Source: Trichuris trichiura (taxonomy: Eukaryota; Nematoda; Enoplea; Trichinellida; Trichuridae). Taken from it: DNA of 64,000 bases. Position 1 is the first letter of the stretch, and the number at the start of each line of letters is the position of its first letter. A program made the translations under genes and the position numbers. The notes under the pieces were generated by a model. It had not been told where the DNA came from, searched no databases, and saw nothing but the letters and a program-made list of their open reading frames with translations. Below are positions 7,109-63,509 of this stretch, in pieces. The stretch spans positions 2,232,001 to 2,296,000 of the forward strand of contig JBAJFE010000038.1 in assembly GCA_037903355.1 (NCBI GenBank), in the 5' to 3' direction.

Positions 7109-7368
7109 AGGTTGCTTCTTTTTTATACGGATTGTGAGTCCCATTGAAAAATTTTACTACTAATTTCTCCGGAGCTTTCGGGTCCAAACGCGACCCGTCA
7201 TCAGCGGTCTTAAAATGATGTAATTACTTCATTTTAAGACCGCTGATGACGGGTCGCGTTTGAACCCGAAAGCTCTGGAGAAATTAGTAGTAAAATTTTT
7301 CAACGGGACTCACAATCCGTATAAAAAAGAAGCAACCAAATGAAACTGTACGGTCCCGTACGAAGGAA
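7109..7368. repeat. Palindromic PLE-related element, family A
   Basis: 7109-7337 is a nearly perfect inverted repeat (arms of about 110 bp, loop about 9 bp). The right arm contains CTGATGA (7243-7249), a stem-loop and GAAA (7268-7271), then AATCCGTA. A tail with GGTCCCGTAC lies outside the palindrome, as in the other family A copies. No clear target duplication was found for this copy. Confidence 0.8.
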
Positions 7369-7527
7369 TTATAGGTTATACCTATACCTATTTGGAAAGT
7401 ATTGCGATCTCAGAAGTAGGAGCTGCACACATTCCATCGAAAACCGCTCAATAACACTTTTCTTTCAGCTTGAATATTGAATGTTTAAAATTATGGAGTT
7501 GTTTTTTATGTTTACCGAAACAACCTA

Positions 7528-7859
7528 CAGTTGAACCTCCAAAGTTGACCACCTCTGTATGGTGATCACCTCCCTAAGTTGACCAGATATTGACCACTTG
7601 GTTTGTTCGTACGTTAATAAGCGCAAGGACAACTTCAGTAAGTGGGAAGTTGACCGCTTTAGCATGACGTGGTATATGGACACAATGCTAGTTTGCTCTC
7701 TGTAAGTTGGCTAGTCTGTTGAGTGAACAACTTACCGTGGTTTAACTGCAATCTATTTAGCCGAGCCACTTATACCCACAGCCTCCATATGTTGATCCCC
7801 TCCGATGTTGACCAGTTTTTCCCAGTCTGCTTTGTGGACAACTTACGGAGGGTCAACTG
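7528..7859. mobile_element. TA-flanked pogo-like MITE
   Basis: Flanked by TA on both sides (7526-7527, 7860-7861). Ends are CAGTTGAACCTCC and GGAGGGTCAACTG. The interior carries repeated GTTGACCACC motifs and an additional internal end-like sequence near 7735, so the copy may be composite. A close relative lies at 60957-61143. No coding capacity. Confidence 0.75.
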
Positions 7860-8203
7860 TATTTTACAAGTGTGACCAACGTGTCCTTTACAAAAAGTTT
7901 GCTTTAGGCTGTTTATCTCTCTGCGGGTTGTTCTGTTTACCAAAGTGCTACTTGTTTATTTTCTTTATCTGTGACCTTAGCGTGACCCGGGCAGCAATAA
8001 CTACCAGGAAAGGGCGCTGATTGGTAGATGCGTACCCACGGGTGACGGTCAAAACGGTTATATAAGCCGACGGTAAAAGCCGGAGGTTGAGTCTTCGAAT
8101 GATCGCATTAAGAAGGAAATTCTCCCATTTGCCTTGTTCGGACGAAATAAAGACTTGTTTTTTCTGTGAATGTGTGAAAATACAAGAAGTCATATTTGCA
8201 AAA

Positions 8204-8412
8204 TAATAGTTTCGAAAGACGAGGTGTCTTTTGACAGGCTTAAGTTGTTTCATAGTTGGTCTTTTGGTTCACGGGTTTGGCCTGTTTGTTGTAGCTGTAA
8301 ATAAACCTCAAAGTGTCCTACCAACGAATTAATGAGCAAATTGTTAGAGAAAATACAGAACAATGCTATACCGTACGTTTCGGAACTGCTCTTGTTCCTG
8401 AGCAGAGTTGCA
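8204..8412. repeat. Solo arm of palindromic element, family B
   Basis: Shares the family B start TTTCGAAAGACGGGGTGTCT (here with a few changes), the block GGTTCACGGGTTTGGCCTG and the block CCGTACGTTTCGGAACTGCT with copies at 22.3, 26.6-27.3 and 48.6 kb. Only one arm is present and it ends inside the core. Confidence 0.7.
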
Positions 8413-9212
8413 TATATTGTACACACCTTTGTTCCCAATTTCGAGGAAGTTTTAGCTAAAATTTTTAATTCTTGTTGTTTATGCTTCGCTAAACTGACTT
8501 CGTAAGATAGTCAAATGACACATCAATGTTAGCAGCCCATTGCAAGTAGTGAACTCATTTTCTTCAAAAATGTTTAAAATTGTTTAAACTATTTATTTAA
8601 ACACTGGGTGACGTTATATTACGCATTCACTTGGCGTATTAGGACTTCCCTGCTGCTAAATGATTTCGATGGAATTTTTTAGACTTTCTACTTTATCAGG
8701 CGTGCTATCTAAGGTAAGCACATTTCATGCAATGAAAAATTCAGCCGGTCTGCAAGGCTGCTTTCGTTTGCAAATCCCTTTTTCTGCAGTGAGAACTGCT
8801 TGATGCTTGTAATGAATACAGAAGTAAATTTTGCAAGTGGATTTTCTCCACTAATTGAAGTGAATGTCAAATGCTTTCTGGCCGTTTCACTGCCCGTTGG
8901 TTTCCATTCTAGTTTTTAATAAGTCGTTTAACATTTACCTTTTTTGCCTCGGTTTACTACTGGCGACTGTTACTTTCAGTTTTCTCTTAAAAAGCATGTT
9001 GCATCACCGCCACTGTCGAAAAAGCCAATAAAGCATGCACTTCTAGAAAAGGAACCTGCCACGCTACAGGTAACCAATGTACCTGCTGGCCCATACTGTA
9101 CAATGTTTAAATTCATTCGGCGCATCCAGGGGTATCATTTAATTGAACAGCCATTGTTGTAGTGTACATTTTGTAGAAATTGGCTGCAACGTTTCTTTTT
9201 CAAAGTCCAAGA
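8413..9212. other. Region upstream of the RhoGAP gene, with a possible extra 5' exon
   Basis: 8971-9069 is bounded by TTACTTTCAG and CAG|GTAACC and is open in one frame (33 codons, lysine-rich, containing SPPLSKKPIKHALLEKE). It could be an upstream exon of the RhoGAP gene, whose relatives have about 45 more N-terminal residues, but I cannot join it in phase to the next exon. Confidence 0.3.
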
Positions 9213-12483: not shown

Positions 12484-12936
12484 CAGCCATTCTCAACGTG
12501 GGACCTGGGGCCCCCAGGGGGGCCGAGAGAGTGTCAGGGGGAGGGCAGGAGGCCGTCGAGGGGGGCTGAGAATCGTTATTGGAACAAGCGTAGCTCGGTA
12601 GATCAGAAAGGTGAGAATTTATGCCAATCCTCTATAGAAGATTGGTTAACCGTTAGCAACATTCCTCTTTAGAGAATTGGCACAAATTCTCACTCGACTC
12701 GACGAAATGGTTCCATTGTTAGTTTCAAAGAACCCCAAGTGCTCTTTTCAAATGATTTGACGACTGTATATTCGCATTGTATCAGTGCATTAACTTGATC
12801 CTAGGAGGTTGCCATTGAAAGCTGATTGGCTGCTATACAAAAAACGCAAAAATTAATCGACCAATAGGAAAAGGGGGCCTGGCACCTAAGGACACCTTCC
12901 AAGGGGGCCTAGCGCCGAAAAGGTTGAGAATGGCTG
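12484..12936. mobile_element. hAT-type non-autonomous element (453 bp)
   Basis: Ends are CAGCCATTCTCAACGTGG and ...AAAAGGTTGAGAATGGCTG, nearly perfect inverted repeats with the CTCAACC terminal motif of hAT elements. A perfect 8-bp target duplication GTATAAAC occurs at 12476-12483 and 12937-12944. Interior is G-rich at both ends and includes a secondary hairpin around 12,610-12,705 (GTGAGAATTTATGCCAAT paired with its imperfect complement). Confidence 0.85.
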
Positions 12937-13149
12937 GTATAAACGACCTAGCAAGATATGCGAAGCGTGTATGCAGTTCCATTGCTAGAAATGTGGACTA
13001 ATGAAAACCGAAGGGGGCTCACGTTGAATCACGGTTCAAGGTGACGCGCGAGGGGCTAGGTAGTTACCACTTGTCCATCGTTATTTGACTACGGTCCACG
13101 CGTTTTTTGCCATGCGCAATGGCTTAGACTCATAAAGTTACCGTGGTTC

Positions 13150-15705
13150 TGCGACTTTAGCGCGACTTTCAAGCGTAAGCATGGAACACTTCGACTACTA
13201 GTCAGCAAGGGCAGGCTCAAAATCCTGATAGGACTAGACTGGTTCCGAACACTTGGATTGAACATTTCGAGGGCTAATCTAGTTACGGAAAGCAGTGCTC
13301 TTGAGGACTCCTTCGAGGAGTTCCGGGATATCTTCTCACAACCGCTGGAAAGCTATACGAGTCCAGAAGTCGCTTTGCCACTTGGCCCTAACGTTCCGTC
13401 GAAACATTTAAGGCGAGAAATGCTCCAGTAGCTATCCGTCCACGCATCGAAGACGAGATCGACCGACTGCTAAAAGAAGGCGTCATTGAGCCTATCAGCA
13501 ATCTGAAGTGGTCTACGCTGATTGTTCCTGTCATCAACTCGAACGGCGCAATTCGACTTTGCGGCGATTACAAAGTTACGACCAACACTGCCCTGCGAGA
13601 CAATTCATATCCTATCCCAGCAGTTAATAATCTATAGTCTAACTTGGCAGGAGGACAAGTTTTCGCAAAAATAGACATGGCACAGGCTTACCTACAGTTA
13701 ATCGTGGGCAACAGTTCAGCTGAAGCCCAGATGAGCATCACGCATCATGGGGCATTCAAGATCAAACGTTTGCAGTTTGGGGTGAGCATCGCTCTGAGAA
13801 TTTTTCAGCAGGTTATGGATGAAGCACTCAATAGTGTTCCAGGAGTCACTCCATATTTTGACGAAATCTCCATCAGGGCTGCCCCATCCCAACAACTAGC
13901 ATGCAGACCGAAACAGGTCCTCCAAATGTTTCGAAAGCTGGGTTTCAGAGCCAAGAAGGAAAAATGCCTATTTGAAATCAAGACAGTTGACTTCCTGGGC
14001 TAAAGGATCAATACATCTAGTATTCAACCGTCAGCATCAAAGCTCGAAGCAATTCACACGGCACCAGCACCTAAAAATCAACGGGAACTCTAGGCTTTTC
14101 TATGTCTCCTGAATTTTTACAACAGTTTTTTAGGGGCAGAGCCGCTTCACCATCTCCTGGATAAGACGGCAAAGTGGAAATGGACTAATGTGCATGAAGA
14201 AATTTTCCAGGCAGCAAAGAAGCTACTCACTTCAGAAAGTGTTCTAGCCCCATTCGACAACTCGTTATCAACTACCTTCACTTGTGACGCACCACCTTAC
14301 GGATTAAGAGTTGTCTTGAGCAAAAGGAAGGCAAATGGTCAGGAGATTGCTGTCGCTTTTGCATTGCTGTACTCTTACAATGAGAGAACGCAACTGTGCA
14401 CAGATAGACAAGGAAGCTCTAGCAGTAGTGACAGGAGTAAAGAGGTTCCAACACTTCTTTTGTGGCCGAAAATTCATACTGATAACGAATCACCAACCGC
14501 TTCTTGGAATTTTCACCACCGACAAACTAGCGCCAGAAATCCTTTCACCAAGTAAGTTGAGATGGTCCATCTTTTTGCAAGCTTACGAATTCAACTTGGT
14601 GTACAAGCCATCATCAGAAATCTTTAACACTGATGCGCTAAGCAGGCTGTCTCAAAAGCCGCTTGAGATTGAGGTACCAGGTTTTTCAGAGGTACTTTTC
14701 TTTGAAGAATTACCGGCGTCTCCACTTACGGCATCCAACATTTCTAGGATGACTCTGCATGATCCTGTGTTAAGCCATGTACTAAACTGGGTATAGAAAG
14801 CATGGCTAACTAAGATTGACAAAGCTTTTCAGTCATTCACTAACAAGAAAAACAAACTTTCAGTTCATAAGAATTGTCTCCTTTCAGGAAACAAAGTCGT
14901 TATTCCACGACAAAGGCAACAGCAAGTCCTAGAAAAAAGACATCTAAACCACCCAGGAATCGTTAGGATGAAAAGTGTGGCACGATGCTATGTCTGGTGG
15001 CCAAACATTAATGCAGGCGTTGAAGTGTGCCTATTCAAATGTTTTACCTGTCAGACGACCACCGTTCTCTCCTAAATGCCCCATTTCATCATTGGGAGGT
15101 CCCACAAAACCCATGGTCGAGACTGCATGTCAACTTCGTCGGACCCTTTGAGGGCGAAAGATTTCTCATAATTGTGGACGCTTATTCTAAATGGTTAGGA
15201 GCTAAAAGGACAAAGTCTACTACTGCTGAGAACACTATTATTCAACTGCGGGAAGTATTCACTATTCATGAAATCCCAGATTCCATAGTTTCAGACAACG
15301 GAGCACAGTTTACCTCTGAAGAATTCCAGTTGTTCTGTAGAGGTAATCTCATTAAATCCATCCTAGTGTCACCGCACCTCCCACAAGGCAACGGTCATGC
15401 TGAACGCATGGTCCAGACCGTTAAGGATTTGTTGAAACGAATCATTTATGGTAACTGGCATACAAGACTACGCAGTTTCCTACTGACGAACTTTTTGACT
15501 CCATCAGTTGTTAGTGGTTTGAGCCCAGCAGAGCTACTGATAAGACGAAGACTGGAGACGTTTTCAGACATACTTCACCTAGATACTTGGAAAGAAAGCC
15601 AACTTAAGCAGGATGCTGCTAGGGCCATGACCAGCAGGTACTCAAAAACTTTCCAAGCATGAGATCTTGTGTTCATGAGGAGTTACGATTCAGCTTTCGC
15701 TTGGA
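13150..15705 (+). pseudogene. Decayed Ty3/gypsy retrotransposon pol (protease-RT-RNase H-integrase)
   Basis: Order of domains in several frames: end of an aspartic protease (KILIGLDWFRTLGL, near 13,220), reverse transcriptase (LCGDYKV, then VFAKIDMAQAYLQL and the active-site strand VTPYFDEI, 13,550-14,000), RNase H (KEALAVVTGVKRFQHFF, then TNHQPLLGIF and DALSRL, 14,190-14,660), the integrase HHCC finger (RHLNHPG...KCFTC, about 14,940-15,050) and the integrase core (HVNFVGPF, VSDNGAQF, GNGHAERMVQT, 15,120-15,660). At least four frameshifts or stops separate the pieces. The RT active site reads FDE where FDD or LDD is expected and the first integrase aspartate is asparagine. No gag and no LTR pair could be found, so the ends are approximate. 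The sequence type resembles the gypsy/mag-like families often annotated as K02A2.6-like. Confidence 0.88.
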
Positions 15706-17090: not shown

Positions 17091-17094
17091 ACCT

Positions 17095-17425: not shown

Positions 17426-17860
17426 TCGAATTCTTCTATATGATCACTTCAACATGATAATCCCAGTCAGACGCATTCAGCTTATTTCTGAAACTTTCTT
17501 TACAACTTGACTTACTGAGAGAGCTTTAGGACAGAATAGAAAGCTCTTCTTCGCTCCACCGTTTTACAGGAAGAGAATAATCAATGCCTACAACATTGGA
17601 TGCTGCCATGTTGTCACTAGCCATGGTGCTGAAGCGGCCTAACTTTGTTTAACCATGCAGATCTGACGGGATACGGTGCGTTCAACGTAGTGTGATCATT
17701 GGCGTCCATTACACCATTTGAGTGGTGTATAGGACATGCAGCATTAAAGCTGAAACGGCAGGCAAATTGTAGAAATAAAAGTACAGCGGTTCATTGATAC
17801 TGGCTTAGGATGCATGCTGTGTCAAACTGCAAATATTCATTTGTACATGAGTGTCTAGAG

Positions 17861-22352: not shown

Positions 22353-22571
22353 TCGAAAGACGGGGTGTCTTTTAACAGGCTTGAGTCGTTCCACAGTTGG
22401 TCTTCTGGTTCACGGGTTTGGCCTGTTTGATGTATCTGTAAATAAACTTCAAAGTTTATTTACAAATACATCAAACTTCAAAGTTTATTTACAAATACAT
22501 CAAACAGTTTTTCCCCGGAAGTTTATTCACAGATACATCAAACAGACCAAACCCGTGAACCAGAAGACCAA
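22353..22571. repeat. Palindromic element, family B, with 13-bp target duplication
   Basis: Outer arms are inverted copies: TCGAAAGACGGGGTGTCTTT... and TTGGTCTTCTGGTTCACGGG read out again in reverse before 22,571. Flanked by the perfect direct repeat ATATGGCAGTGTT at 22340-22352 and 22572-22584. The centre is shortened: a 26-bp tract (AAACTTCAAAGTTTATTTAC) is repeated and the core with GAAA is missing. Confidence 0.85.
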
Positions 22572-23758: not shown

Positions 23759-24850
23759 ATGCGTGGTATCATCTCTGGCATGATCAATAGAGCGGTCAAT
23801 TTATGCGAACCTGAATTTATCCAATCAGAATTTAACTATATTAGAAAGATCTTTTACAAAAACAACTATCCAAAATCTTTCATCAACCAAGTGTTCAAAG
23901 ACAAGCTCCACAACCGGGAATCACATCAACCAAACATCCTGCCCGACACACGGTTGGTTATCCCCTATGTGGCAGGATTAGGAGAAAAGATCATCCGGCT
24001 AGGAAAACAGTTAGGATTCCAAGTCTTTTTCAAAAGCTTCCCCAACCTCAGGACCATTCTCCGGAAGGACAAAACCAAAATCCCAAAAAACAAAAAAACA
24101 GGACTGGTCTATGCAATCAAATGCCCTTGTTCCGGAGTGTACATCGGGGAAACCGGAAACACCTTAGAACATAGATTCAACGAACATATGAAAGGCCTTA
24201 TCACCCATAAAAACGCAAAAAACATTCTCAACAACGACAACAACCCTACAAGACGACGTGGAAGGAAAATCGTGAACCCAAAAACTACCATGGACAAAGC
24301 GATACAGGCCTCCGCGGTCGTGGAACACGCCGCACGATGCAACGAGACTCTCCATCCAAAAGTCTTATGCTACGAAAGCAATTTGCGCCTACGGAAGATC
24401 AAGGAAGCTCTATACATCAGGCACAATGAGACGTACAATAGAGACCAAGGAGCAGAAATAAACGAACTATGGGCAAACATTGTCACCCGCTCTAAATGCT
24501 GCTCACTTGACTAAACACAAAAAGGAAACAAAGAACTACGGATCAAAACCAACCAAATGGAGAAGTACCTTAAAATGAAATTTCTGAAGAACAACACATA
24601 TTCACAACAAGAAAAATGGCTAGCTAACAGACAGAAGATGAGGACACAATGAAATCTACTTTAAAACTCTTGACTTTAAACAGTGAAAACGTCCCCGTGC
24701 AACACCCGTTACATCATTTTAACACCGTGAATTTTCGTTAAGTCATTGCTTTATATTAACACCGCTGAAGACGGGTCTCGTTTGACCCGAAAGCTATGGA
24801 ATAACAAAAATATTATCTACGGGACAAAATTTCCGTAAAAGAAACTCAAC
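23759..24850 (+). mobile_element. 5'-truncated Penelope-like element with GIY-YIG endonuclease ORF
   Basis: The open frame 23759-24514 (251 residues) is the C-terminal part of a Penelope-like element protein: a linker (DTRLVIPYVAGLGEKI), then a GIY-YIG nuclease with GLVYAIKCPCSGVYIGETG, the CxC pair, and R-FNEHMKG, followed by the distal motifs AVVEHAARC and KEALYIRHNETYNRDQGAE ending in W. The reverse transcriptase domain is absent (5' truncation, as is usual for these elements). The 3' UTR contains the family A core: CTGAAGA (24765-24771), stem-loop, GAAA (24789-24792), then CGGGACAAAATTTCCGTAA. This physically links the family A palindromes to a PLE. The ORF itself is intact from 23759, so this copy is comparatively young. 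Confidence 0.9.
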
Positions 24851-26632
24851 ATGAAACCGCTGGAGCACCATTAAGTTTGGTTCCAATGATAGCACGATTA
24901 AACTTTGCCTGTGTGCATATGATGAAATAATTGCGCCCAAAAATGCGCGTCTGTCTTGCAAATGAGATATAAGTCGAGCGGACAGTATATAAACATTGGG
25001 GAGAACACCTGCAGTTATTTCAGGTCTCTCTCTCAGACTTTTCCCGTTATTTTCCCGTTTGACTTTTTTGACCATTTATAGGAAATAAAGCATTTGTTCA
25101 ACCAATGAACAACTGGACTGTTACTTCAAAAATTCATAGAATGCGGTTTCATTGAAATCAGTCCATTAAGAATGCTCCTGTTCCGCCCTTAACAAAGGTA
25201 AAGAAGAAGAGCACTAACATATATTTGACAGAGCAGAATCCAATCAGAAAAAAACTTCGAATATAGCTTAAGCTTACTACTACTGACTGGGCGTTAAATG
25301 ATTGCATATCTATTAATTTTACGCATGATTAGCGTGTGCTTGTGATATAATGAACGTTCGAACATGAATTTCTTGGAACATCTGTTTTGTGAATAATTTA
25401 GAAATTGTTTGGGACTCTTCAGAGATGTTTATCCCAAGCGACTGTGATTTCACAATATTTTAGGTAGAAGAAACATTAAAAACAGCGACAGTATGTTTTA
25501 CAAGCCTTTTCCATAGCCAAAATTACCCTTCTTGGGACTCAAAATGAACATGTCAGTGGCACCGAATGTTACGAACATAGTAACTGCCTTTTGAAAAAGG
25601 TTTGAATTCGATGCTAAACCTTGACTGAAAAATGCTTGCAACAAAACATGATTGCATGGATGAATCTTTACAGGGAAACTGATAATGTTGTGCATGTTTA
25701 TAGGCAGCAATTCTGGTTCTCTTTTTAGTCGGTGTAGCGCCTGCTAAAAACACAGGATGTCATAAATAACGTGCTTTCATTCACAGGAACCTATCCATCC
25801 GAATCTCATATTTGTCGAAGGATTCTGCTAAACACTGTCAGTCGTCTCATTCACGTTTTATGCACTCAGCAAAACTGCCAAAATATGTTTATGTTATATT
25901 ATCGGAACTTATAAACCAAAGGACCCATTGAAGAAGCAGAAAAAGATATTAGACTTAGAGAACCGAAGGTCTGATACTTCTTCTTACTTCTTTAACAGGT
26001 TTTCAGTAAATAAATTTTATAGTATGAAAACCTATAAAACCGCTACGAAAGATTATATTTTGAAGTACCAAAAGGTGAAACGGCATTGCGGTCTTACTAT
26101 GGTAACACTGCTAAAGCTTAAAGCGATTTAGTTCTTTGTTGGAAAGTAGCAAAAGTTACTTTCGAGAAATCCCAAATATATTTACTTTTTAGATATTTAT
26201 AGGATGCTGATAACAAAAGATCTGTTACAATCTGTACTTTGTCCTCAATATGGCATTGTTTCGGGACAATAATCATTCTATCGCTAGCAATGAAGAATTA
26301 TTCAGTATTATTGATCGGCGGCATTTTTGTGCTAAAGAAGTTGCAGTAGTACCGCAATACCTAACTTTGCTTTCTCTTGGCGAAGTTTCTTCTTTTCACA
26401 AGAGCCGTATAGACTGTTTATCTTTGCTGAGCAATTCTGTTAGTGCTGATAAGTAAACGAAACATCAGAACGAGTTGGTCTGTTGCAACGTTAGTTTAAC
26501 ATGGGTGCTAATGTGAACAAATTACTCTCTGCTAATCATTTGACCAATGCTGGAATAATAGCAAAACAGGTCCAAACCATACACTGTTTAATCGTTCATG
26601 CTGTTCTGCTACCAACCAACCTTATTTTGCTA
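24851..26632. other. Intergenic, no feature recognised
   Basis: AT-rich. Several open frames of 60-95 codons occur but none resembles a known protein or shows splice-bounded structure. Confidence 0.45.
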
Positions 26633-27287
26633 TATGCTTGTTATTTTTCGAAAAACGGGGTGTCTTTTAGCAGGCTTAGGTTGTTTCATAGTTGGTCTTC
26701 TGGTTCACGGGTTTGACCTGTTTGATGTATCTGTAAGTAAATTTCAGAGTGCCCTACCAACGAATTTTGCTATATGCTTGTTATTTTTCGAAAGACGGGG
26801 TGTCTTTCAACTGGCTTAGGATGTTTCACAGTTGGTCTTCAGTTGGAATTCGTTGGTAGGACACTTTGAAGTTTACTTATAGATACATCAAACAGGCCAA
26901 ACCCGTGAACCAGAAGACCATCTATGCTTGTTATTTCAGAAAACTGAACGTCTTGTAACAAACATTTGTGGTTTCACAGTTAATCTTCGTTTCACAGTTT
27001 CAGCCTGTTTTGCTGTATCTGTAAGTAAACCTCAAAATGCCCAACCAGCGAATGGATGAGCAGATTGTTAGAGAATAATACAGGAAAATTGATACCGTAC
27101 CTTTCGGAACTGCTCTTGTTCATTCGTCAACAGTGTAAGGGAGTTCCGTTCTTTACAATTTTCCGAAAGGTACGGTATCAATTTTCTAGTATTATTCTCT
27201 AACAATTTGCTCATCCATTCGCTGGTTGTGCATTTTGAAGTTTATTTACAGATACACCAAAACAGGCCAAAGCCTGTGCTTGTTCTT
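26633..27287. repeat. Tandem array of three family B elements separated by the same target repeat
   Basis: The 13-mer TATGCTTGTTATT occurs at 26633-26645, 26773-26785 and 26923-26935, and a decayed version (TGTGCTTGTTCTT) at 27275-27287. Between the first two lies a single arm of family B (26646-26772), between the second and third a palindromic copy (26786-26922), and then a longer palindromic copy (26936-27274) with two facing cores (CGGTATCAATTTTC arms; TTCCGAAAGGTACGG near 27,165). Arms include GGTTCACGGGTTTG and GATGTATCTGTAAGTAAA. Confidence 0.85.
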
Positions 27288-32399: not shown

Positions 32400-32515
32400 G
32401 TAAGGTCACGAAAATTAATTAAACCGTAAATTGCGCTGATGACGGGCTACAGCGAGGCCCGAAAACTTCGCGATTGACGTTTATGAAATAAACGTCAATT
32501 TGATGAACAGGTTGC
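32400..32515 (+). repeat. Solo family A-like core
   Basis: CTGATGA at 32436-32442, stem CGGGC...GCCC, GAAA at 32461-32464, followed by the hairpin TTGACGTTTAT/ATAAACGTCAA. Unlike other copies the upstream arm is absent, so this is a single, non-palindromic unit. Confidence 0.65.
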
Positions 32516-36244: not shown

Positions 36245-36257
36245 ATTTTGAAACCGT

Positions 36258-36477
36258 GAAAATGTGGTTTCTTGGTACGGGAGCGTATGTTTTCATAATG
36301 TAAAAGTTTTATTACGGAAGTATTCCCGTTTAATGTGCTAAATAACTCCGGAGCTTTCGGGTTGACCGAGACCCGCCTGAATTCACAACCGCTGAAGACG
36401 GGTCTCGGTCGACCCGAAAGCTCCGGGGTTATTTAGCACATTACACGGGAATACTTCCGTAACAAAACTTTTACATT
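36258..36477. repeat. Palindromic PLE-related element, family A, 13-bp target duplication
   Basis: Direct repeat ATTTTGAAACCGT at 36245-36257 and 36478-36490 bounds a 220-bp insert. Left outer sequence CTTGGTACGGGAGC is the reverse of the family's terminal GGTCCCGTACCAAG. Arms meet around 36,375; the right side holds CTGAAGA (36392-36398), stem GGGTC/GACCC and GAAA (36416-36419), then ACTTCCGTAA. Confidence 0.88.
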
Positions 36478-36527
36478 ATTTTGAAACCGTATACAAATTC
36501 AGCTGCCTTTTCGCTATGATTATACAT

Positions 36528-36739
36528 TTTTGACTTGTTTGTTCGTGCGGAGTCTGTCCTGTTGAAAACGACAAAATCTTTAATGGAAGGCCATAGCTGA
36601 TCAATCTTTAGTACCGCTGAGGACGATTCACGTGAGGCCCCTATAGCCTTCCATTAAAGGTTTTGTGTTTTTCAACGGGACAAACTCTGTACGAACAAAC
36701 AATTCAAACATGAAAACCTATGGTCCCGTACCAAAAAGT
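36528..36739. repeat. Palindromic PLE-related element, family A, 13-bp target duplication
   Basis: TATGATTATACAT (36515-36527) and TATGATCATACAT (36740-36752), 12 of 13 identical, flank a 212-bp insert that lies only 38 bp from the preceding family A element's right repeat copy. Arms TTGTTCGTGCGGAGTCTGTCC and its complement are clear. The core is degenerate: CTGAGGA (36617-36623) without a following GAAA. Confidence 0.82.
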
Positions 36740-36752
36740 TATGATCATACAT

Positions 36753-41618: not shown

Positions 41619-44600
41619 ATGGATCTCTTCGATGTGCGCATGAAGCACTCCACTGAACGGCTAGCTGACAACGAGAAGACATCCGGATGGCACAGAAACA
41701 TTCTGAAACCAGCATGTCTGCCGATTACAATAATAATAATTTTCATTGCAATGGTGATAATGTTTTCGTTGCTCAATGAAGATTACGTAGAAGGCTTTGC
41801 CACGTGGAAAGAAGAACAACAACTGTGTCTTCAGCAGGACTGCCGGTAAGTCCACTGAGTCTGTAGCACAGCTTTTAGCAATAGAAATGCTGTCTTAGCT
41901 GAAGCATGCACTGTGGCATTGATTGTTATTCAGTTTATTTCTCAATTTAAGGGCACATTTGGTAGAGAGCATTCCTGAAGGAATGACCTATCCTGCAACG
42001 GAGAAGAGGCATTTAAGCACGTACGAAGTGTGGCTCGAACTTTTGCAAAGTACCCAGGTTTCCCTACACGCTACTGCGTTCTACTGGACTTTGCGGGCTA
42101 AGGATATGCTCACGGATGACTCAGATGCTCAGGTTGATTTAGTACGGGCACTGGTATTTAATTAAGCATTTTTATTTATGCAGGGAACAGAGATCTACAA
42201 CACGCTCGAAAGGGTAGGTCGGGAACGACAAGTGTTACTAGTTCAAAACTTGGGTACTGAATCAACAATGCAAGAATCCGCACTACTGCAACGGCAGGGT
42301 TAGTTCCAGCAAGTTTTGGCCTGCAGTTTTCTACAGGATTTTTTCAAGGTCTGGCAGAAGTCAGGAGTATGAACCATACTGTTTGGTTCGGCAGCGGCGT
42401 CATGCACACCAAAATGTGGATTGTTGATGATGCTCATCTGTACATTGGCTCGGCAAATATGGACTGGAGGGCATTGACTCAGGTAGTTAGCCTATTCCTT
42501 GACTTAACGTTTGATTATTGATAGTGGATAATGTACCAAAGAGATTTTGCATTCCTTCCCTGGCGTTCGTTACCCAGTTTATTTTAACAGAATTTTTTGT
42601 TGACTCCTCTAGTGAAATCAATTTCAAGGAGCGTTTCCTTGGAAGTGAATCAAATTAGCACAGCGTTCACTTCAGCGCAAGCTACTCTCGCTCGCAGAGC
42701 TCCTGTGTAGCATATGTAGTTGTCAGCATTGTTCAAAAAGTAATTCAATCATTGCGAGTCAAAAACAGTGAACACGTTGCAAACATAAGCATTGAGACCT
42801 AGTCACACTGCAGCATTTACAGCTGATAGATAAATTATTAACACAATGTGCCAAAGACATTCTGGAGTTAGCGTTTTGTCTAAAAATAATGCTTTTTGTC
42901 CTGTAATCGTCAAAAACTACTTTAAACTCAGGCCGCGTCATAACTGCAGAAAATTATAGTCGGATTTGTATTTAGCAACATAACTTTTCCAAACTGGATA
43001 ACCCGTTGAAAACACCAGAAATTGCACCGAAGCATTCAAACCCTTTTTGGGCTGATTTCAGTGGAAAAAATAACGTGGAGTGAAGGGAAGATAAACCGGT
43101 GTGGGAATGTGTGATTGATATTAAAACGTTCAAAAATTGCTGAATTCACCAGTTAGTTGTCTGTGTTGCGCATTAATTTTCCTAAATTTTGTTATAGCGC
43201 CTCTAGTGCCACCTGTTCAGTCTGACGTAACTTTTCGTTCCTTCTTTAGCTCTCTCTTTTTTTCAAAACTGAAACTTTGTATGTTGTCTTCTTGAATTAC
43301 TTTTCCATTGCTGACATGTGCGAGGGAAGTTCGGAAAATTCCCGGAAAAACGGTGCCGTGTCTAACATGACGCTAACGAATGGGCCATAATATGTTTAAT
43401 CTTATCTCCGTTATCTTCGGTCGTGTATGGGGAGGTAGCCTTACCCGACGCTGCGCCAGTGTAGTACAAGCTGCTCCTAACTAATCGTTTTTCTCATGAT
43501 ATGGAAAATCTTCATTTTGGCGTCAGAGCTACATTAAATTTCTCTCCAAGCTTGGTTGGCAGTCGAGGAAAATTATTCAATCTTTGCAGCGGGTTTACGG
43601 AAATAGTGTACCATCTAAATCGCTTGTCTATGAGTGGATAAGGCATTTCAAGGAGGGCAGAAAGGCCATCGAAGACGACAGGAGAGCGGGAAGGCCAGCA
43701 ACCACAACGAGTGAAAGAACTGTGGCCCTTGTCCAGAACATAGTGGAAGGAGACCGTAGAATTACCATCAGGAGGATTGCTATAATGACTGGGATCTCCT
43801 TCCAGTTAGCATTTGGAATTCTGCGTCAAACCCTTGGTCTGAGAAAGCTTTCAGCTCGGTGGGTACCGAAAGCGTTGCGCGAAGAACAGCTAGGTCGACA
43901 CGTTAACCTTTCTCAGGAGCTTTTAACGAAGATTGAAGCAAATGAGACCAGGTTTTTTGACCGTATTGTCACGGGAGATGAAACGTAAATCTACCAATAT
44001 GGCGTTGAAAGTAAGATCCAGTCAAGGCGGTGGTCACCGAGGGGGTCAGCAGGTCTAGTCAAGTTCGAAGCGGAACGGTCGGCTATAAAGATTATGTCGA
44101 CCATATTCTAGGAGACGGACGGAGTAATTCTGACTGACTTCCTCGATAGAGAACGAACAGTCATGGCAAGTTGTTCGTAGCAAAGCTATATTGCAAAAAG
44201 TAAAGACCGCAGTGTCAAGATAACGGCGTAGCAAGTTGCATCTCAGTGTCCTTTTCCATCAGGATAACTAACACGCCCGCTCATTTGTCAAGGACTGTGC
44301 GGACGGTTCTTCGTGAGTTTTGTTGGGAAGTCATTCCACACCCGCCCTACAGTCCAGATCCTGCCTCGTCAGACTTTTTTTCCTTCCAAAGTTAGAAGAA
44401 CATATAAAAAGCACTCTGTTCGAGCCAATGGATGACGCGAAAAGCGCCATCTTGACTTCATGCAATACACAGCCCCAGGATTCTACAAGGAAAGTCTGCA
44501 TAGGTGGGCACACTGTCTGCAGAAGGACGGAGGATACGTTGATAAATAAGTTTGATATCATTGCAAATAAGATTTTTATTTAATTTTTCCGGGAATTTTT

Positions 44601-48584: not shown

Positions 48585-48967
48585 TTCGAAAGACTGGGTG
48601 TCTTTTAACAGGCTTTGGTTGTTTCATTGTTGTTCCTCTGGTTCACGGGTTTGGCCTGCTGGATGTATCTGTAAGTAAACTTCAAAATGCCCTACCAACG
48701 AATGGATGAGCAAATTGTTAGAGAAATTACAGAACAAATTGAATACCGTACGTTTAGGAACTGCTCGTGTTCCGTCGTCAGCAGTGTTGGGGAGTATGCT
48801 GACCCAACACTGCTGACGACGGAACACGAGCAGTTCCGAAACGTACGGTATTCGATTTGCTCTGTAATTTCTCTAACAATTTGCTCATCTATTCGTTGGT
48901 AGGGCATTTTGAAGTTTACTTACAGATACATCCAACAGGGCAAACCCGTGATCCAGAGGAACAACTA
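48585..48967. repeat. Full-length palindromic element, family B, with 12-bp target duplication
   Basis: Perfect direct repeats TTATCAGATTCT at 48573-48584 and 48968-48979 bound a 383-bp near-perfect palindrome centred near 48,795. Each arm runs from CGAAAGACTGGGTGTC through GGTTCACGGGTTTGGC, GTAAGTAAACTTCAAAATGC and CCGTACGTTT to the core. The right core has CTGACGA (48813-48819), C, stem GGAAC/GTTCC and GAAA (48838-48841) followed by CGTACGG. This is the best preserved family B copy. Confidence 0.92.
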
Positions 48968-54248: not shown

Positions 54249-54519
54249 CGTAATGAAAAAACTTTATTACGGATCGGTTCCCGTTTATATATATAAAAGA
54301 TACTCCGGAGCTTTTGGGTCATTCGAGACCCGTCATCAGCGGTCTAAAGTTGTAAATATTTATAATATTTACAATATTTACATCTTTAGACCGCTGATGA
54401 CGGGTCTCGAATGACCCGAAAGCTCCGGAGTATCTTTTATATACATAAACGGGAACCGATCCGTAATAAAGATTTTTCATTATGAAAATATATGGTCCCG
54501 TACCAAGACAACACGTTTT
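54249..54519. repeat. Palindromic PLE-related element, family A, 14-bp target duplication
   Basis: Perfect direct repeats CAATATACCATTAT at 54235-54248 and 54520-54533. Arms of about 110 bp meet in an AATATTTATAATATT-rich centre. The right side contains CTGATGA (54394-54400), C, GGGTC/GACCC stem, GAAA (54418-54421), then CCGATCCGTAATAAAG, and ends with GGTCCCGTACCAAGA. The left side has the mirror core with GCTTTTGGG replacing GCTTTCGGG. Confidence 0.93.
54392..54463 (+). ncRNA. Hammerhead-like motif (hypothetical)
   Basis: CUGAUGA, one C, a 5-bp GGGUC/GACCC stem with a loop, then GAAA mirror the order of the hammerhead ribozyme core (box 1, stem II, box 2). A hammerhead normally has no nucleotide between CUGANGA and stem II, or has a purine-first pair there; here the additional C either is unpaired or pairs with the G of GAAA. 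The recurrent TC|CGTAA downstream (54460) would be the natural NUH cleavage candidate. Activity is not shown by sequence alone. Confidence 0.3.
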
Positions 54520-55247: not shown

Positions 55248-56481
55248 CGATGGTTGTTCGAACAGTTCCCGGAAAAGTTAAATAAAATTTTAATTGCAAT
55301 GATATCAAACTTATTTATCCATGCATCTTCCGTCAACTTCTAGGCACTCCTGCAGGCGGTGTCGCCACTTTTGCAAACCTCCCTTGTGGAGTCCTGGGGG
55401 CCGTATATTGCACGAAGTCGAGACGGCGCGTTTCTCGACATCCATCGACACGAACAGGATGCTTTCTAAATGCTCTTTTAACTTTGGGAATAGGAAAAAG
55501 TCTGACGGGGCAAGATCTGGACTGTAGGGTGCGTTATCGTGATGGAGAAGGACACTGAGGTGCAACTTGCCACACCATTTTCTTGCCACTGCGATCTTTA
55601 ATTTTTGCAATACCGCTTCGTAATAGCTTGCCGTGACTGTTCGCTCTCCTTCGAGGAAGTCAGTCAGAATTACTCCGTCCGAGGTCCCAGAATGTGGTCG
55701 TCATAACCTTTCTAGCTGACCGCTCCGCTTTCAACTTGACTGGACCTGCTGACGCCCTCGGTAACCAGTGCTTGGATTGGATCTTACTCTTGGTGTCATA
55801 CTGGTAGTTCCACATTTCATCTCCCATGACGATGCACTCAAAAAAAAAACCCGGTCTCATTTGCTTCAATCTTCGTTAAAAGCTACCGAGAAAGGTTAAC
55901 GCGTCGAACCAGCTGTTCTTTGCGCGACACTTTCGGGACTCACCGAGCTGAAAGCTTCGTCCGACCAAGGGTTTCAAGCAGGATTCCAAATGCTGAATGG
56001 AGGGCGATCCCAGTCATTATAGCAATCCTCCTGATGGTAATTCTACGGTCTCCTTCCACTATGTTCTGGACAAGGGCCACAGTTCTTTCACTCGTTGTGG
56101 TTGCTGGCCTTCTCGCTCTCCTGTCGTCTTCGATGGCCTTTCTGCCCTCCTTGAAATGCCTTATCCACTCATAGACAAGCGATTTAGATGGTGCACTATT
56201 TCCGTAAGCCCGCTGCAAAGATTGAATAATTTTCCTCGACTGCCAACCAAGCTTGGAGAGAAATTTAATGTAGCTCTGACGCCAAAATGAAGATTTTCCA
56301 TATCATGAGAAAAACAATTACTTTAGGAGCAACTTGTACCACACCGGAGCAGTGTCGAATAAGGCTACCTCTCGTAAAAGCCTGAAAACAACAGAGATAA
56401 GATTAAACATGGTTTGGCCCATCGGTCGGCGTCCTGTTAGACACTGCACTGTCTTTCTGGTAACTTTCCGAACATCCCGTG
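55248..56481 (-). mobile_element. Inactive mariner transposon, copy 2
   Basis: 1,234 bp, opposite orientation to copy 1 and clearly of the same family (helix-turn-helix [20 protein letters not shown] and [13 protein letters not shown] are shared). Ends CGATGGTTGTTCGAACAGTT and, at the other side, CACGGGATGTTCGGAAAGTT; left TA kept (55246-55247). Transposase pieces on the minus strand: 55940-56218 (DNA-binding part), 55660-55869 (GDEMWNYQYD with the first catalytic aspartate) and 55311-55610 (HHDNAPYSPDLAPSDFFLFP). The second and third catalytic aspartates are too close: about 25 residues normally lying between HDNAP and PYSPD are missing, so the DD34D spacing is destroyed even apart from the frameshifts. 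Confidence 0.92.
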
Positions 56482-58081: not shown

Positions 58082-61000
58082 ATGAACTTGATTACACCAC
58101 CACTGTTGTGCTGTTGCCAGGTAGCAAAATCGATTTGCTGTACGTAGTAGGCGACGTTTACAATGGGCTGGCATGTGACCGAGATTTTTCAGGTAATGAG
58201 TATAAATCGCGTTCAGATGCTCTGCTTAATTTACACTTCTGCAGTCCTCTTCAACAAGCAAAAACTGTATGCGACTTCTGCCTCACCTGTCCAAAGGAGA
58301 CAGTACGCAACAGGTCGTTTTGGCCAATCAGAACGGTGTAGTCTGGTGCCTGCGCTGGAAGAAGCAACCGCTAGTGCGAAATGCCTCCTTAATGTTCCGC
58401 AGCTGCTGAATGCCTTTGCAGGTAGAATTCAAAACCTTTCCGGGCCCAAGAATAGACGCACTAACTCTCGGAGGTGATGATGTTGGAGCCGACAAAATTT
58501 TCTTTGCTAGTGGAAGCGTTGTTAATGGATACAACCGGCGGGGCAAACATTTCCTGGCATTTGAAACCAACAAAACTGATTTAATTAACTGCATGTAAAC
58601 AGTAGTCGTTTGCACTCTGTCGCTAGTCTTTTTCTTTGATTCCAGTGCAATTCACGGAGTGGAAATGGTTCTCTGCTCTTCCCATACAATGACTCACTAC
58701 CACGACTGCACCGAGTCTTTTCATTATTTTAGTGGCGATGCCATTCTAGATGTTGCTTGTTTTGAAACTGCGGCAGAGTTCAATGAAGGCAGGGAGTTAA
58801 GCATTGTTTTAGCATGCGAAAATCATTCTTTCAAACTGCTGAGCGGGAAACGCTTAGCAGCTGAAATTGAAATTTCCGCAGCCCCCAACATTCTGTATTT
58901 GATTTCGATGAATGCAGGTAAAATCGCTGTGTTAAAATAGCAGCGTCAGCTCACGTTAGATTTCCAGAAACACAAGAACTCACAGAAGATAGACTGCTGG
59001 TCTACGGAACGTTTGCGGGATCTATAGGTGAACTTGCAGTGGGCAGGTACACAATAAGCTATTGTTTTTAAAATTTTAAAAGTAGCTTCTTTGCAGCAGT
59101 TGCATAGAGAATAAATGGGAATTGCCTTCCCCCAATGGCAGTGCAGTGATCAACGCGATCGAATGCCACGACTTGAAGGGCGACGGTTCGCTAAATCTGC
59201 TAGCGGGCCGAGACGATGGCATTATAGAAATTTATTATTATATGATCAGGCAGGGAGTTATTTTGATTGACTGCGTAGTACGTGTGCAAATCACAGATTA
59301 CACAGTTCCTGCATGAAAACATTTTCAGAAATGCTCTGGAAACGTCGTAGCAGTTCAAAGCGGTTACTTCACTACGACGACCAAACAGGAAATTCTTGCT
59401 TGCACTTATTCAGGTAATACTGGCAGTTAGTTCTTAATTCAACTCGGATTTGCATTGTCTCAGGCAAATTATTTGCTTGTACAATGGATGAACCATTCAC
59501 TAGTATGGAAAAGGATGAAAACGCAGGCGCTTTAGAAGACAAGTTCAGTTCTTTAAGGTAAAAGTTGATCTCCCTGACAGCATGCTAGATTCCTGGCACT
59601 CACTCATTAGGGCAGAAATTGACGGGCTAAGAGAAGAAGTGAAATGTAAAAGAGCCGAACACGCTATGGCTAATCAGCAAAAGGCGGCCATGTCTCGTTT
59701 GCCCATTTTTCCCATAGAAGAAAGACTATTCTTGAATGATCAAGATACTGTTCACCAGTTGAGCATGGAGCTGCCAGTTTCCATTGATTGGGTGCTACTT
59801 AGAGTAAGCTTCTTAGATGTTAATTTGTTAATACTACTTTAATTCCGCGAATGTTTAGAGTGAAGTTGCCATTGATCTTTTAGATGTGAAGCAAAACTCT
59901 GCCATCTTTAGCCCCATAGCAATTGAAGGAATAGTAATATTTAGCTCTAGTCAACGATATGCATCTCTTGGATAACTGTTCTAGTCATCGGATGCGCTCA
60001 TAGCAACTTATCGATGTCAGGCCAATATGACGAGGTTTGAAATGAGTGTGCGTACAATTGAAGGCAAATATGGTAACCTGGAGCTTTACGTGTGCCCAAG
60101 AACGAGCCCCAGTGTCTGTCAGCTGCGGGCATACCCTATCAAAGCACTGTCGCTCCACAGAAGAACGTTAGCATTTGATGAAAGTCGGCCAAAGAACAAA
60201 CTGTCAATTAAAGGAAAGTTTGGGCTTTTTGAAGCCTATGATATAATAACTTTTTGCTTACCTGGGATGGCTGAACAACCACCAGAAACTGAAGAGATTT
60301 CATCCTGCTTCGTTTCCTGCTTTACAGGCACACAGCTGCAAATAACTTGCAGGTAAGCTGCTGGTCCTCCGCTGAATGATTGCTTTGCTCCGAGCTATAT
60401 TACTCTAGAGACCCGCAATGCCATATAGTAACATTGCCATTTGAGAAGCAAAAAAGATAATCAGAAATAATTTTAGCATTTACGGATGACGCAGCTTCCA
60501 TTTGTTGTACAAAGCCCTTATTTACTGTTTTTCAAAATCCTTTCCATAATAACATATTAAAACTGCAACGTCTCGCCTGGTCCGCTCACTATCTGAGGAC
60601 ATTTTTTCGAAATGCTTTTATTTGCTGACAAGGAGAAATCAAAACGTGCGACCTTCAATAGCAAAGGAGAGTGCCTACATACTACAAAAAGCCCCAAGAC
60701 GTTACCCTCGTCGTTTCCTTTACCGTATATCGACTCGCAAGTTCTACTTGTAGGTCAGCCGGTTAGCATACGAGAATGGAGCACGTGCTCCAGTCTCCAC
60801 AATACTTTTCTCTTGTGACTTCTAACCTTGCGGTGTTTAAGTCAGTTTCTTCCCATGCTTTACTCTGCTAAGTACCTTAGTTTTCGATAGCCTTGTATTC
60901 TCTTCTGACGCTTACATAATTTTTACCCTTATGCTTTCCTTTGTTTTTTGCTAATACAGTAAAACCCCCGTAAGTTGACCACCCAACGGACTGGAGAAAA

Positions 61001-62694
61001 CTGGTCAACATAGGAGGTGGTCAATATATAGGAAGTGGGTATATATAGCTTGGCTAACGTGCGGACAAATCGACTGGCCAAAATTCGGTCAACTTAGGGA
61101 GGTGGTCAACATATAGGAGTAGTCAACTTCGGGGGTTTTACTGTATTTGCCTAGCCTCATGCCACCGGTAAAAGGCTTGTTGTATTAGTATAAATTATTG
61201 GTCTTCATTCCTGTTTTTTCATAAGTTGGTCAGCGCACCGGTTATGTTCATTTAAACAATGCAGATTTTGTTTTTAATAATAAGACTACATTCTCATGCC
61301 CACTACTTTGCTTAGTTTTGTTTTTCCAGAGAGCTTTGGTCACGCGTACGGCCTCATTTAAGGGCATCAGCTCATCCGCTTTAAATTTTGAATTCATTGG
61401 GTTGATGGTAGAACGCTCAGTCTACGGAATTTCAGGAGTAGTAACGCCTCAACTGGAGAAGCAGGTAGGTAGATGTGAACAAATTAATTTGTATTAACAG
61501 ACAGACACCACTACCATTAAGATGTTGTCTAAGCTAATGTGCTAGTATTGAACTATGTTTTTCTTTTTTTTCTATTTTTTTCTTCGTATTTCTTTTTTAG
61601 AAAAAAAACTTTTACAGCTTTTAACCCGTTTTTCATATAACGTTTATTGTTATAAACGCTGCCTACGCAGCTTTCGGGTCCTACCTTGACCCGTCTTCAC
61701 CGTAAAGGGTATCCGCCGTCGGGCCGCTCTTCCTGTTTGAAAGTCCTTCTATCCGTTCAGCTTTGGTCGGGACCGCAACTGTCAGCTCTATCCTGAGCCA
61801 TCGAGCTTTGATCCCGTTTCGTCAGTCAGACGTCAGAGCGAGCTCCCAATTGACCTACCGCGACGGCGACTGAGCAACAATGGAGCGACAACGAGTAAAT
61901 AAAAGATGCAAACCTGTCCGTTTTAAACGAAACGGGTTTTAAATTACATTATTATATTTCTAACAACTTGCGTGCGCTATTCTGTACTTAAGGAAAGATT
62001 GTTTTAAACAGCAAGGCATTTTAATAAATTAGGAAGAGTGAAGGCTTACGCTCTCTACAGACCAGATGTGTTTACGGCTCGGGATAGAGCTGACAGCTGC
62101 GGTCCCCGCCAAAGTTAATCGGGTAGAAGGGCTTGCAAACAGGAAGAGCGGCTTGATGACGGACACATTTCACGCTGAAGACGGGTCAAGGTAGGACTTG
62201 AAAGCTCCGTAAGCAGCGTTTATAACAATAAACGTTATATGAAAAACAGGTTAAAAACCGTAAAAGTTTTTTGTTCAAAGTGTTGAACTGCATCCTGAGA
62301 CAAATTTTTCATGATGACACTTCTAAGTAAATCATGCACAATTTAGCACTGTTTGAACCTTCTTACAGGCTCTCCACGCGTTTGCAATGACGAATAGAGC
62401 TAAAAGGAAAATGTTTAATTAAATACGCAAATCCCATACTTAAGGAGCGAGCCTGTATCAGTACCACTTGGCAAGTGATGTTAAAAGCAAGTGCCGTTGT
62501 GCCGTTTTTCCGTTCGACCAATGCAAACTGTTCAGCAGCAGTCTCTTTTGATACACAGAACTGAATGAATGGTTTTTATTTCAGGCTGAATGAAATCATC
62601 GCGCTGTCAGACAATTTATCAACGATAACTATTTTGCAAGACGTTATCAACCGTGAAGCTAGCAGCCGCGGGTGGAAGTTAGATATCAGCTATG
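58082..62694 (+). CDS. BBS7: Bardet-Biedl syndrome 7 protein, 5' part (continues beyond the window)
   Basis: Subunit of the BBSome, the coat complex that moves membrane proteins in and out of cilia; BBS7 has an N-terminal beta-propeller, a coiled coil, a GAE domain and further C-terminal domains. Exons: 58082-58120, 58245-58373, 58422-58594, 58646-58917, 58968-59046, 59100-59277, 59329-59413, 59464-59557, 59611-59803, 59859-59933, 59985-60352 and 62585-62694. Recognisable blocks: NGVVWCL, FKTFPGPRIDALTLGG, RRGKHFLAFETN, KGDGSLNLLAGRDDGIIEIY, ACTYSG, KFSSLRAEIDGLREEV (coiled coil), AIDLLDVKQNSA, ALIATYRCQANMTRFEM, YVCPRTSPSVCQLRAY, IKALSLHRRT, FCLPGMAEQPP and SDNLSTITILQDVI. The start MNLI and the distance to MRLLP match the human protein exactly. 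Most introns are about 50 bp; the one after 60352 is 2.2 kb and filled with repeats. The C-terminal exons lie past 64,000. The donor at 59277 could equally be 59274. Confidence 0.92.
60957..61143. mobile_element. TA-flanked pogo-like MITE in BBS7 intron
   Basis: 187 bp, TA at 60955-60956 and 61144-61145, inverted ends CAGTAAAACCCCCG / CGGGGGTTTTACTG, interior with repeated GTCAACTTAG/GGTGGTCAACAT motifs. Related to 7528-7859. Confidence 0.88.
61595..62275. repeat. Large palindromic PLE-related element in BBS7 intron
   Basis: About 680 bp. Arms 61,600-61,810 and 62,090-62,275 are inverted copies (AACGTTTATTGTTATAAACGCTGC against GCAGCGTTTATAACAATAAACG, quoted in part; CAGCTCTATCC against GGATAGAGCTG). 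The right arm holds CTGAAGA (62175-62181), stem GGGTC/GGACTT and GAAA (62200-62203). The unique centre of about 280 bp is larger than in other copies, so this may be a longer relative or carry an insertion. Confidence 0.75.
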
Positions 62695-63150
62695 GTAAGC
62701 TCCTTTAGTCAATCTTCATTAGGGTACAGTTACTGACAGTTTTGAGTACTATGGAAAGCTACAGGCAAAATGATTTCTCAGAAACGCTGTAAAGGTTAAC
62801 TTTTTACTGATTATATGCAATAAAACCTGCCTAATCCGAATTCCTCTCTAATCCGAACTCGTGTAAAAGAACAATAGAACGACCGTGTACATTAAAGATA
62901 ATTAGCTTACCAGTGCGAAATGCGCAGTCACTTGGCGGCAACGGCTATAAGGGCAGTAAACAAACTGCCAATGGTCCTTTCGGTATACGTTAACGTAGGC
63001 GCAGGCTAGCCACGGCTCTGCCGAACCAATGTCAACCAATAAGTTGATTGCAGCAAGGTACCTCCAGACCTAGGTTTCCCCAAATAAACGGAATTGTGGA
63101 TCAAAAACTTACTGTTTTTCAGTCATATAAAACTACAATCTGTTTTCAGT

Positions 63151-63341
63151 TAGGTTTCTTTTACGGAATGCTTGTCCCGTTGAAAAATTGATCATTTTAA
63201 TACCGCTAAAGACGGGTCGGGTCGCGTTGACCCGAAAGCTCTGGAAAAACTGAAATTAAAATTTTTCAACGGGACAAGCAGTCCGTAAAAGAAACCTAAC
63301 ATGAAAATCCCCGGTCCCGTACCAAGAAGTTGCATCTACAA
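63151..63341. repeat. PLE-related element, family A, 14-bp target duplication
   Basis: Direct repeats AATCTGTTTTCAGT at 63137-63150 and 63342-63355 bound 191 bp. Outer arms GGTTTCTTTTACGGAATGCT / AGCAGTCCGTAAAAGAAACC are inverted, but the core is present only once and mutated (CTAAAGA for CTGAAGA). It ends with GGTCCCGTACCAAGAAGTT. Confidence 0.88.
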
Positions 63342-63379
63342 AATCTGTTTTCAGTATAAAAATTTCAATATAAAATTTC

Positions 63380-63509
63380 AGAACGAACTAACATTTTTGG
63401 ACCTTTTGGGACCAACTTTGTCCCGTCGTCAGCATTAAAGGCATTACTATCATCGCTAACGACGGGACAAGGTCGATCCTGTGAGTTCTGAAAGTGTTAA
63501 GTTCGTTCT
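63380..63509. repeat. Palindromic element of a third sequence type
   Basis: Arms AGAACGAACTAACATTTTTGG / ...TGTTAAGTTCGTTCT (quoted in part) meet at about 63,445. The left arm, read in reverse, has CTGACGA, C, GGGAC ... GTCCC, AAAA; the right arm has CTAACGA, C, GGGAC. The architecture equals families A and B, but the sequence outside the core differs. Confidence 0.7.

Follow-up and report, generated by a model that had tools for sequence, protein, structure and literature searches.

Short palindromes with hammerhead-like cores in the Trichuris trichiura genome are head-to-head double insertions of Penelope-like element leaders

A 64,000-nucleotide stretch of the Trichuris trichiura genome (assembly GCA_037903355.1, contig JBAJFE010000038.1, positions 2,232,001 to 2,296,000; this whole stretch is the window referred to throughout) contains a series of short palindromes with ribozyme-like cores, which an earlier note on the same DNA had taken for a separate, retrozyme-like family. 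These palindromes are tiny head-to-head double insertions of Penelope-like elements (PLEs), and no independent ribozyme family. Each palindrome arm is the leader, or pseudo-long terminal repeat (pLTR), of an autonomous PLE, ending outward either about the ATG of the PLE open reading frame (ORF), a 'short' arm, or some 37 nt further into the ORF, a 'tail' arm. The elements of this kind in the window, assigned to two PLE families, are as follows.

36258..36477, tail arm on the left (minus strand), short arm on the right (plus strand): head-to-head leader dimer of PLE family 1, between duplications at 36245-36257 and 36478-36490 (ATTTTGAAACCGT)
54249..54519, short arm on the left, tail arm on the right: head-to-head leader dimer of PLE family 1, 14-bp duplication CAATATACCATTAT
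63151..63341: PLE family 1 dimer with truncated short arm and full tail arm, 14-bp duplication AATCTGTTTTCAGT
36528..36739, tail arm at 36614-36739: family 1-like dimer with decayed core, 13-bp duplication 36515-36527 / 36740-36752 with 1 mismatch
7105..7377, short arm 7105-7207 (minus), tail arm 7240-7377 (plus): PLE family 1 dimer, cores at 7204 (minus) and 7243 (plus), duplication sub-threshold
48586..48967, tail arm on the left, short arm on the right: PLE family 2 dimer, core CTGACGACGGAAC..GTTCCGAAACGTACGG, 13-bp duplication TTATCAGATTCTT
22353..22571: PLE family 2 dimer, arms truncated at model positions 97 and 102, 13-bp duplication ATATGGCAGTGTT
26647..26922: PLE family 2 dimer, both arms from model position 82, internal tandem duplication, 14-bp target duplication TATGCTTGTTATTT
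26936..27279: PLE family 2 inverted pair adjoining the preceding dimer, no target duplication called

The window holds nine inverted pairs with 86-96% complementarity (7105/7342, 22391/22577, 26687/26926, 27003/27267, 36295/36479, 36525/36712, 48626/48968, 54244/54489 and 61596/62279). All seven cores cited in the earlier note (7243, 24765, 32436, 36392, 48813, 54394 and 62175) were recovered at those positions by a regular expression, which also matched at 60593, where stems are lacking by eye, and at 7204 on the minus strand. The duplications of 12-14 bp that it had described around six palindromes are likewise present, at 13 bp for 22353, 36258 and 48586 (given there as 48585), 13 bp with one mismatch for 36528, and 14 bp for 54249 and 63151; a seventh, of 14 bp, bounds the element at 26647. 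Under the same duplication scoring in the window, that of the palindrome at 7105 is decayed at best and falls below threshold, and none was called for the inverted pairs at 27003 and 61596.

Aligned arms share a single layout, which in RNA sense consists of ~15 nt, the hammerhead-like core, ~60 nt, a hairpin (ACGGGA..TCCGT), the ATG and the optional tail, whose ~37 nt are the first codons of a PLE ORF encoding reverse transcriptase (RT) and GIY-YIG domains (MKLYGPVPRS... in locus L050). Tail ends mostly read ...ACNACNTTTTC(AA), and short ends fall in a ~10-nt zone about the ATG. The family 1 leaders (...CCGTAATAAAG...) carry an AATAAA shortly ahead of the short end in many subfamilies and lack it in others. 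A search of the host genome (72.7 Mb, 62 contigs) gave 71 GIY-YIG matches; among eight such loci that were fetched, seven have the core by regular expression, and in the eighth (L042) the profile detects two arms. RVT_1 and GIY-YIG both score above the Pfam cut-off in the three ORFs tested (L047, L048, L049), and the top five protein matches are Trichuris RT proteins with 47-50% identity. These matches, together with HSP70 (Soboliphyme as best named nematode at 95%, metagenome entries at 97%, C. elegans at 91%), point to a nematode host, perhaps from clade I; a RhoGAP exon of the host returned no homologues, and a search for RPB2 gave no usable frame. Elements range in size from 175 to 2955 bp with ends that are alike throughout, the longest (L047, 2955 bp) having an 854-residue RT+GIY-YIG frame and a 12-bp duplication. 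The insertions thus have RT and a C-terminal GIY-YIG in one ORF, a pLTR that includes the ORF start with an optional tail of ~30-40 nt, and variable-length duplications in AT-rich targets, all features of endonuclease-bearing (EN+) PLEs, and their membership in this group is firm. When 94 short-dimer arms were compared with 19 reference arms from 10 PLE loci, 75 were at least 80% identical to one of them (median 0.874); the remaining 19 scored under 0.8, and none of these 10 loci offers a close coding counterpart to them. The Penelope machinery invoked in the earlier note is in place, with RVT_1 and GIY-YIG in 3/3 ORFs and arms that are PLE leader, and the separate retrozyme-like family dissolves into it, since the arms consist of leader and the opening codons of ORFs from autonomous PLEs, and the ends of long coding insertions are no different.

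The same anatomy bears on the proposal that a non-autonomous, retrozyme-like family spreads as a palindromic unit by way of small hammerhead-processed circular RNAs. The hammerhead-like core, the 190-380 bp size and the presence of PLEs alongside would all suit such a family, yet the outer ends lie at PLE ORF start sites instead of the predicted cut site, the arms run across that site, the layout is unchanged up to the 2955-bp coding copy, and centres differ among insertions. Orientation is mostly head-to-head and not tandem: neighbours less than 600 bp apart in the core-selected loci and the window are head-to-head in 48 cases, tail-to-tail in 8 and direct in 4, as the earlier note had anticipated in calling them inverted dimers, and unlike the direct tandem monomers with canonical hammerheads of metazoan retrozymes. 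We regard this family as very improbable. A palindromic miniature inverted-repeat transposable element (MITE) of a DNA transposon would also display inverted repeats and target duplications, but its chances are negligible given that the one-tail rule described next speaks against it, one terminus having ~37 nt from the start of the PLE ORF that the other lacks, and that arms and centres vary between copies, in a comparison that included no search aimed at transposase termini.

Dimers were surveyed in the window and in loci L001-L110 minus six, namely L003, L011, L016 and L024 (which overlap others), L043 (inside L050) and L041 (a second copy of L040). The family 1 profile gave 76 minus/plus neighbour pairs, 58 of them with a duplication score above 9, a value exceeded by 10 of 748 mismatched controls (highest 15.5). 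Every one of these 58 duplication-verified dimers has one tail end and one short end. Over all 76 pairs the composition is tail/short in 71, short/short in 4 and tail/tail in 1. The verified dimers derive from core-selected loci (38), loci picked for head-to-head arms (14), GIY-YIG loci (3) and the window (3); two of them, both in L090, adjoin each other and have almost identical duplications, and their independence is uncertain. Duplication lengths peak at 13 bp (20 dimers) and 14 bp (15 dimers), lying within 10-18 bp in 57/58 with a mode of 13, the other being a 22-bp duplication in simple repeat. Family 2, scored at the same threshold with no separate control, yielded 18 pairings, 8 rows of which exceed it and represent 7 elements (two rows share one), all tail/short. 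A separate search found further dimers in L005 and L056. Apparent mixed-subfamily pairs (L091, L092 and one in L039) received no duplication call, and L091 and L092 were accordingly not counted as insertions. Read outward, the first base is A at both ends, in 64% and 59% of the 58, a bias that fits a terminal T on both primers.

The two arms of a dimer are closely matched, with a mean identity of 0.958 and a minimum of 0.874 in the 46 verified dimers tested, compared with a mean of 0.718 for 400 random arm pairs, 91% of which fall below 0.85. Two independent PLE RNAs, one copied on each target strand, would account for arms placed head-to-head and for an A-rich start at each end; this is nevertheless distinctly improbable, because no dimer among the 46 has arms below 0.87 identity and because two separate RNAs offer no reason for exactly one tail in 58/58, though the idea would stay viable if both RNAs came from one locus.

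Centres, by contrast with arms, are not shared between insertions. The head-to-head pattern finds 165 centres in the genome, and 49 of the 50 compared differ, the shared centre being one identical pair on two contigs. Because the centres differ, the palindrome arises at insertion and is not inherited; it is formed anew each time. What the earlier note had called the inserted unit is thus correctly delimited, in that duplications bound it, but is not a unit of replication. Most likely, the palindrome comes about when a single RNA is reverse-transcribed twice, beginning at two different sites, with both cut target strands priming. In 19/23 short arms and in 19/23 tail arms the inner end is found 9-19 nt upstream of the core's stem I, and the two inner ends of a given element are no more than 2 nt apart in 18/23; an apparent single-arm insertion with duplication (L066, at 578) begins at the same point as the inner ends of dimers. 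In family 2, truncations are near-equal in both arms of three dimers (82/82, 122/121 and 121/121) and less equal in others (97/102, 41/32 and 1/12). Truncation affects 12 arms in family 1, and for 4 of these the end falls at model positions 28-32, where an advancing polymerase is about to enter stem II. All of this is compatible with two cDNAs that run off a single RNA.

These matched inner ends also suit self-priming, or snap-back, in which a single cDNA or antisense transcript folds at its end, is copied, and is inserted as a hairpin. Near-identical arms, the inner ends within 2 nt in 18/23 and the loop-sized spacers (at least 3 nt) at 43 of 50 centres are what it would produce, and self-priming on an antisense template was the preferred explanation for a bdelloid Penelope (Arkhipova 2013, PMC3846280; cited here, like the other papers below, for part of its text). 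Back-copying should, however, reach the end of the first cDNA, whereas the two outer ends map to, or close to, a pair of start sites, and in 58/58 the tail is missing from one end. Moreover, 7/50 spacers are 0-2 nt, below the size of a hairpin loop, 15/23 dimers have filler that matches the upstream reference of neither arm, and both ends start A-rich. On balance we hold snap-back to be unlikely. Some centres, those of L001 (1095-1606), L064 (508-902), L061 and L076, consist of simple repeats or copied arm pieces, which resemble the templated insertions left by polymerase theta end joining. At L057/L058 (C1:1808100-1811700), ~2.4 kb of other sequence sits between a pair of PLE arms that share their inner end, and the flanks match over 16 bp with 2 mismatches (no control); possibly this is foreign DNA caught between two cDNAs.

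The regular end structure suggests that PLEs start copying from both cut target strands. In the mechanism we propose, the PLE protein (RT + GIY-YIG) would bind its own RNA at the ORF start and cut both target strands ~13 nt apart, each 3' end then presumably serving as a primer. One cDNA would begin ~37 nt into the ORF, giving the tail end, and the other at about the ATG, giving the short end; both would copy one shared RNA and head for its 5' end through the hammerhead-like core and the leader. Most cDNAs would stop, presumably by run-off, at one shared point that precedes stem I by ~15 nt and is probably where transcription begins, and some may extend further on read-through or tandem RNA. 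Host end joining could then link the two cDNA ends head-to-head, with gap filling leaving the duplication of 12-15 bp. We consider this two-primer, one-RNA integration the best explanation of the insertions, and a reasonably probable one. Dual priming is favoured because both ends are A-rich and because the PLE protein of the anole has been shown in vitro to cut and extend both target strands, with a preference for ATT on each, starting reverse transcription at two sites whose interval constitutes the tail (PMC11167929). More tentatively, and with chances just short of even, PLE integration might normally be two-sided, a PLE dimer holding one RNA that is reverse-transcribed twice, from two fixed sites and with a separate target strand as primer for each; the one-tail rule would be the footprint of two polymerases working on a common template, and leader-only palindromes would reflect the same reaction at the 5' copy of the start site in PLE mRNA.

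Several observations weigh against integration from two primers on one RNA. In vitro the anole protein showed no strand difference in its start sites (PMC11167929), so the one-tail rule needs a further cause. Snap-back along a single first cDNA would equally yield matching arms and equal inner ends, and the spacers of at least 3 nt in 43/50 would accommodate it. Four of 64 unpaired arms (L006, L044, L055 and L066) are apparent single-arm insertions with duplications of 11-13 bp (no control), and two cDNAs are consequently not obligatory. In unequal-arm dimers the shorter arm is divided 10:6, with 23 equal and 19 unassigned, leaving a leading and a trailing RT unproven; that the tail arm is always the shorter is not established by these figures. 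The inner-end statistics come from 23 of the 42 verified dimers with a core in both arms, 14 being unassignable and 5 having long gaps. Finally, the count of 165 head-to-head centres has no fair tail-to-tail counterpart: a tail-to-tail count of 0 was withdrawn as a control, as the core spacing of at most 51 nt in that pattern excludes intact arms.

The core itself is abundant. The strict pattern was matched 1,441 times (732 + 709) across the host genome and not once in a reversed control, and is therefore not due to chance; a second core type (CTGCTGACGACGGAAC..GTTCCGAAACG) occurs 144 + 156 times, again with none in the control, and a pattern scan of the viral_contigs set found no core. One example from the window illustrates the arrangement.

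54391..54428, plus strand: hammerhead-like core, CCG / CTGATGA / extra C / GGGT..ACCC / GAA / AGCT / C17 / CGG
between 54425 and 54426, plus strand: predicted cleavage position in this core, from sequence and stem statistics

The conserved CUGANGA...GAA core, stems I and II and an NUH cut site are those of a type I hammerhead. A perfect 4-bp stem II is present in 117/139 distinct cores, and in each of these 117 a single extra base precedes it (C in 110, T in 7), bearing out the extra C of the earlier note; in a hammerhead, A9 would be followed directly by stem II. A viroid hammerhead reportedly also has an extra core nucleotide. Stem I pairs at 3/3 positions at the predicted place in 98 of the 117 cores, and in at most one at five other offsets. 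With partners shuffled, the mean is 82.8 and the maximum 89, because CCG/CGG dominates; the covariation support is accordingly real but modest. G occupies H17 in 1/100 AGCT cores, in line with the hammerhead rule. Four cores were folded, with z values from -0.01 to -2.59 that range from unremarkable to moderate, and Rfam hammerhead models gave no match at E<=1 in the window and nine loci. We use the term 'hammerhead-like' because these models miss the core and because of the extra base. Self-cleavage is predicted at AGCTC|CGG or ACGTA|CGG, and not, as a general rule, at the TC|CGTA put forward before. Stem III is loopless and mostly self-complementary (AGCT or ACGT), which suggests that the ribozyme might act as a dimer, as described for newt and viroid hammerheads (PMC6155905). 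In the same Rfam search the palindromes matched microRNA precursors and one bacterial sRNA model, below curated cut-offs; those at 7185-7262 and 54320-54413 reach E ~1e-9 against microRNA precursor models (mir-4529, and MIR7807 over 7125-7322), and such matches are a likely source of false microRNA annotation.

Inverted pLTRs with a tail are already known for PLEs. The 2013 study of the bdelloid EN+ element Pen2a_Av described an ORF with RT and GIY-YIG, pLTRs that include the first codons, target-site duplications, an optional ~31-bp tail on one of two inverted pLTRs, an insert completed by the inverted pLTR, and head-to-head palindromes; its authors favoured antisense self-priming (PMC3846280). 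The T. trichiura insertions differ in their duplications, mostly 12-15 bp compared with the 8-10 bp given there, and in the large number of leader-only head-to-head dimers (PMC3846280). PAc, a Poseidon element of Anolis carolinensis, resembles them in its hammerhead at the leader/ORF boundary, in the two RT start sites that explain the tail, and in cutting and extending both strands with a preference for ATT; its hammerhead overlaps the ORF start, whereas ours lies ~100 nt upstream of the ATG (PMC11167929). We noticed no analysis of head-to-head dimers in the part of the PAc study consulted (PMC11167929). Metazoan type I hammerhead retrozymes share the ribozyme type, small size and PLEs alongside, but are direct tandem repeats with circles and canonical loop-loop contacts, in contrast to inverted dimers of PLE leaders with minimal cores (PMC7229834). 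Minimal type I cores lacking helix III are known from PLE pLTRs, from which the present ones, with their extra base ahead of stem II in 117/117, may differ (PMC6155905). No prior description of the strict one-tail rule, or of the mass of leader-only dimers, was found in the part of the PLE literature searched.

On how PLEs integrate, the 2013 paper proposed antisense self-priming (PMC3846280) and the 2024 biochemistry left later steps for validation (PMC11167929). The T. trichiura genome supplies a large natural set of real and informative PLE insertions, and no new retrozyme family. Its 65 verified dimers from two PLE families (58 + 7) have one end at each of two start sites, with matching arms in the 46 tested, a pattern that makes dual-strand target-primed reverse transcription directly testable. 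The set is also a warning against taking short palindromes with hammerheads for ribozyme elements, MITEs or microRNA precursors.

Further leader-derived features of the window are these.

24762..24859, plus strand: short-ended arm of PLE family 1, core at 24765; no partner arm detected, and no duplication of 11 or more nt within 3.5 kb upstream
8211..8398, minus strand: tail-ended arm of PLE family 2, no inverted partner detected
61603..62268, arms 61603-61702 (minus) and 62173-62268 (plus): inverted pair of a third related leader family, no duplication called
32433..32471, plus strand: solitary hammerhead-like core of a third type, stem I GCG/CGC, stem II GGGC/GCCC

Elsewhere in the window, a 5S rRNA-like sequence at 17585-17703 (minus) scores over the Rfam gathering level, and remnants of an LTR-retrotransposon at 14094-15662 (plus) comprise an RT RNase H-like domain and an integrase core in different frames. 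An inverted repeat of 480 nt (43479-43958 / 55844-56323) is 95% complementary at a separation of 11.9 kb; a frame at 43.5 kb has HTH matches, one of them to Mos1 transposase, below the Pfam cut-off, and the two repeats are perhaps mariner-like copies.

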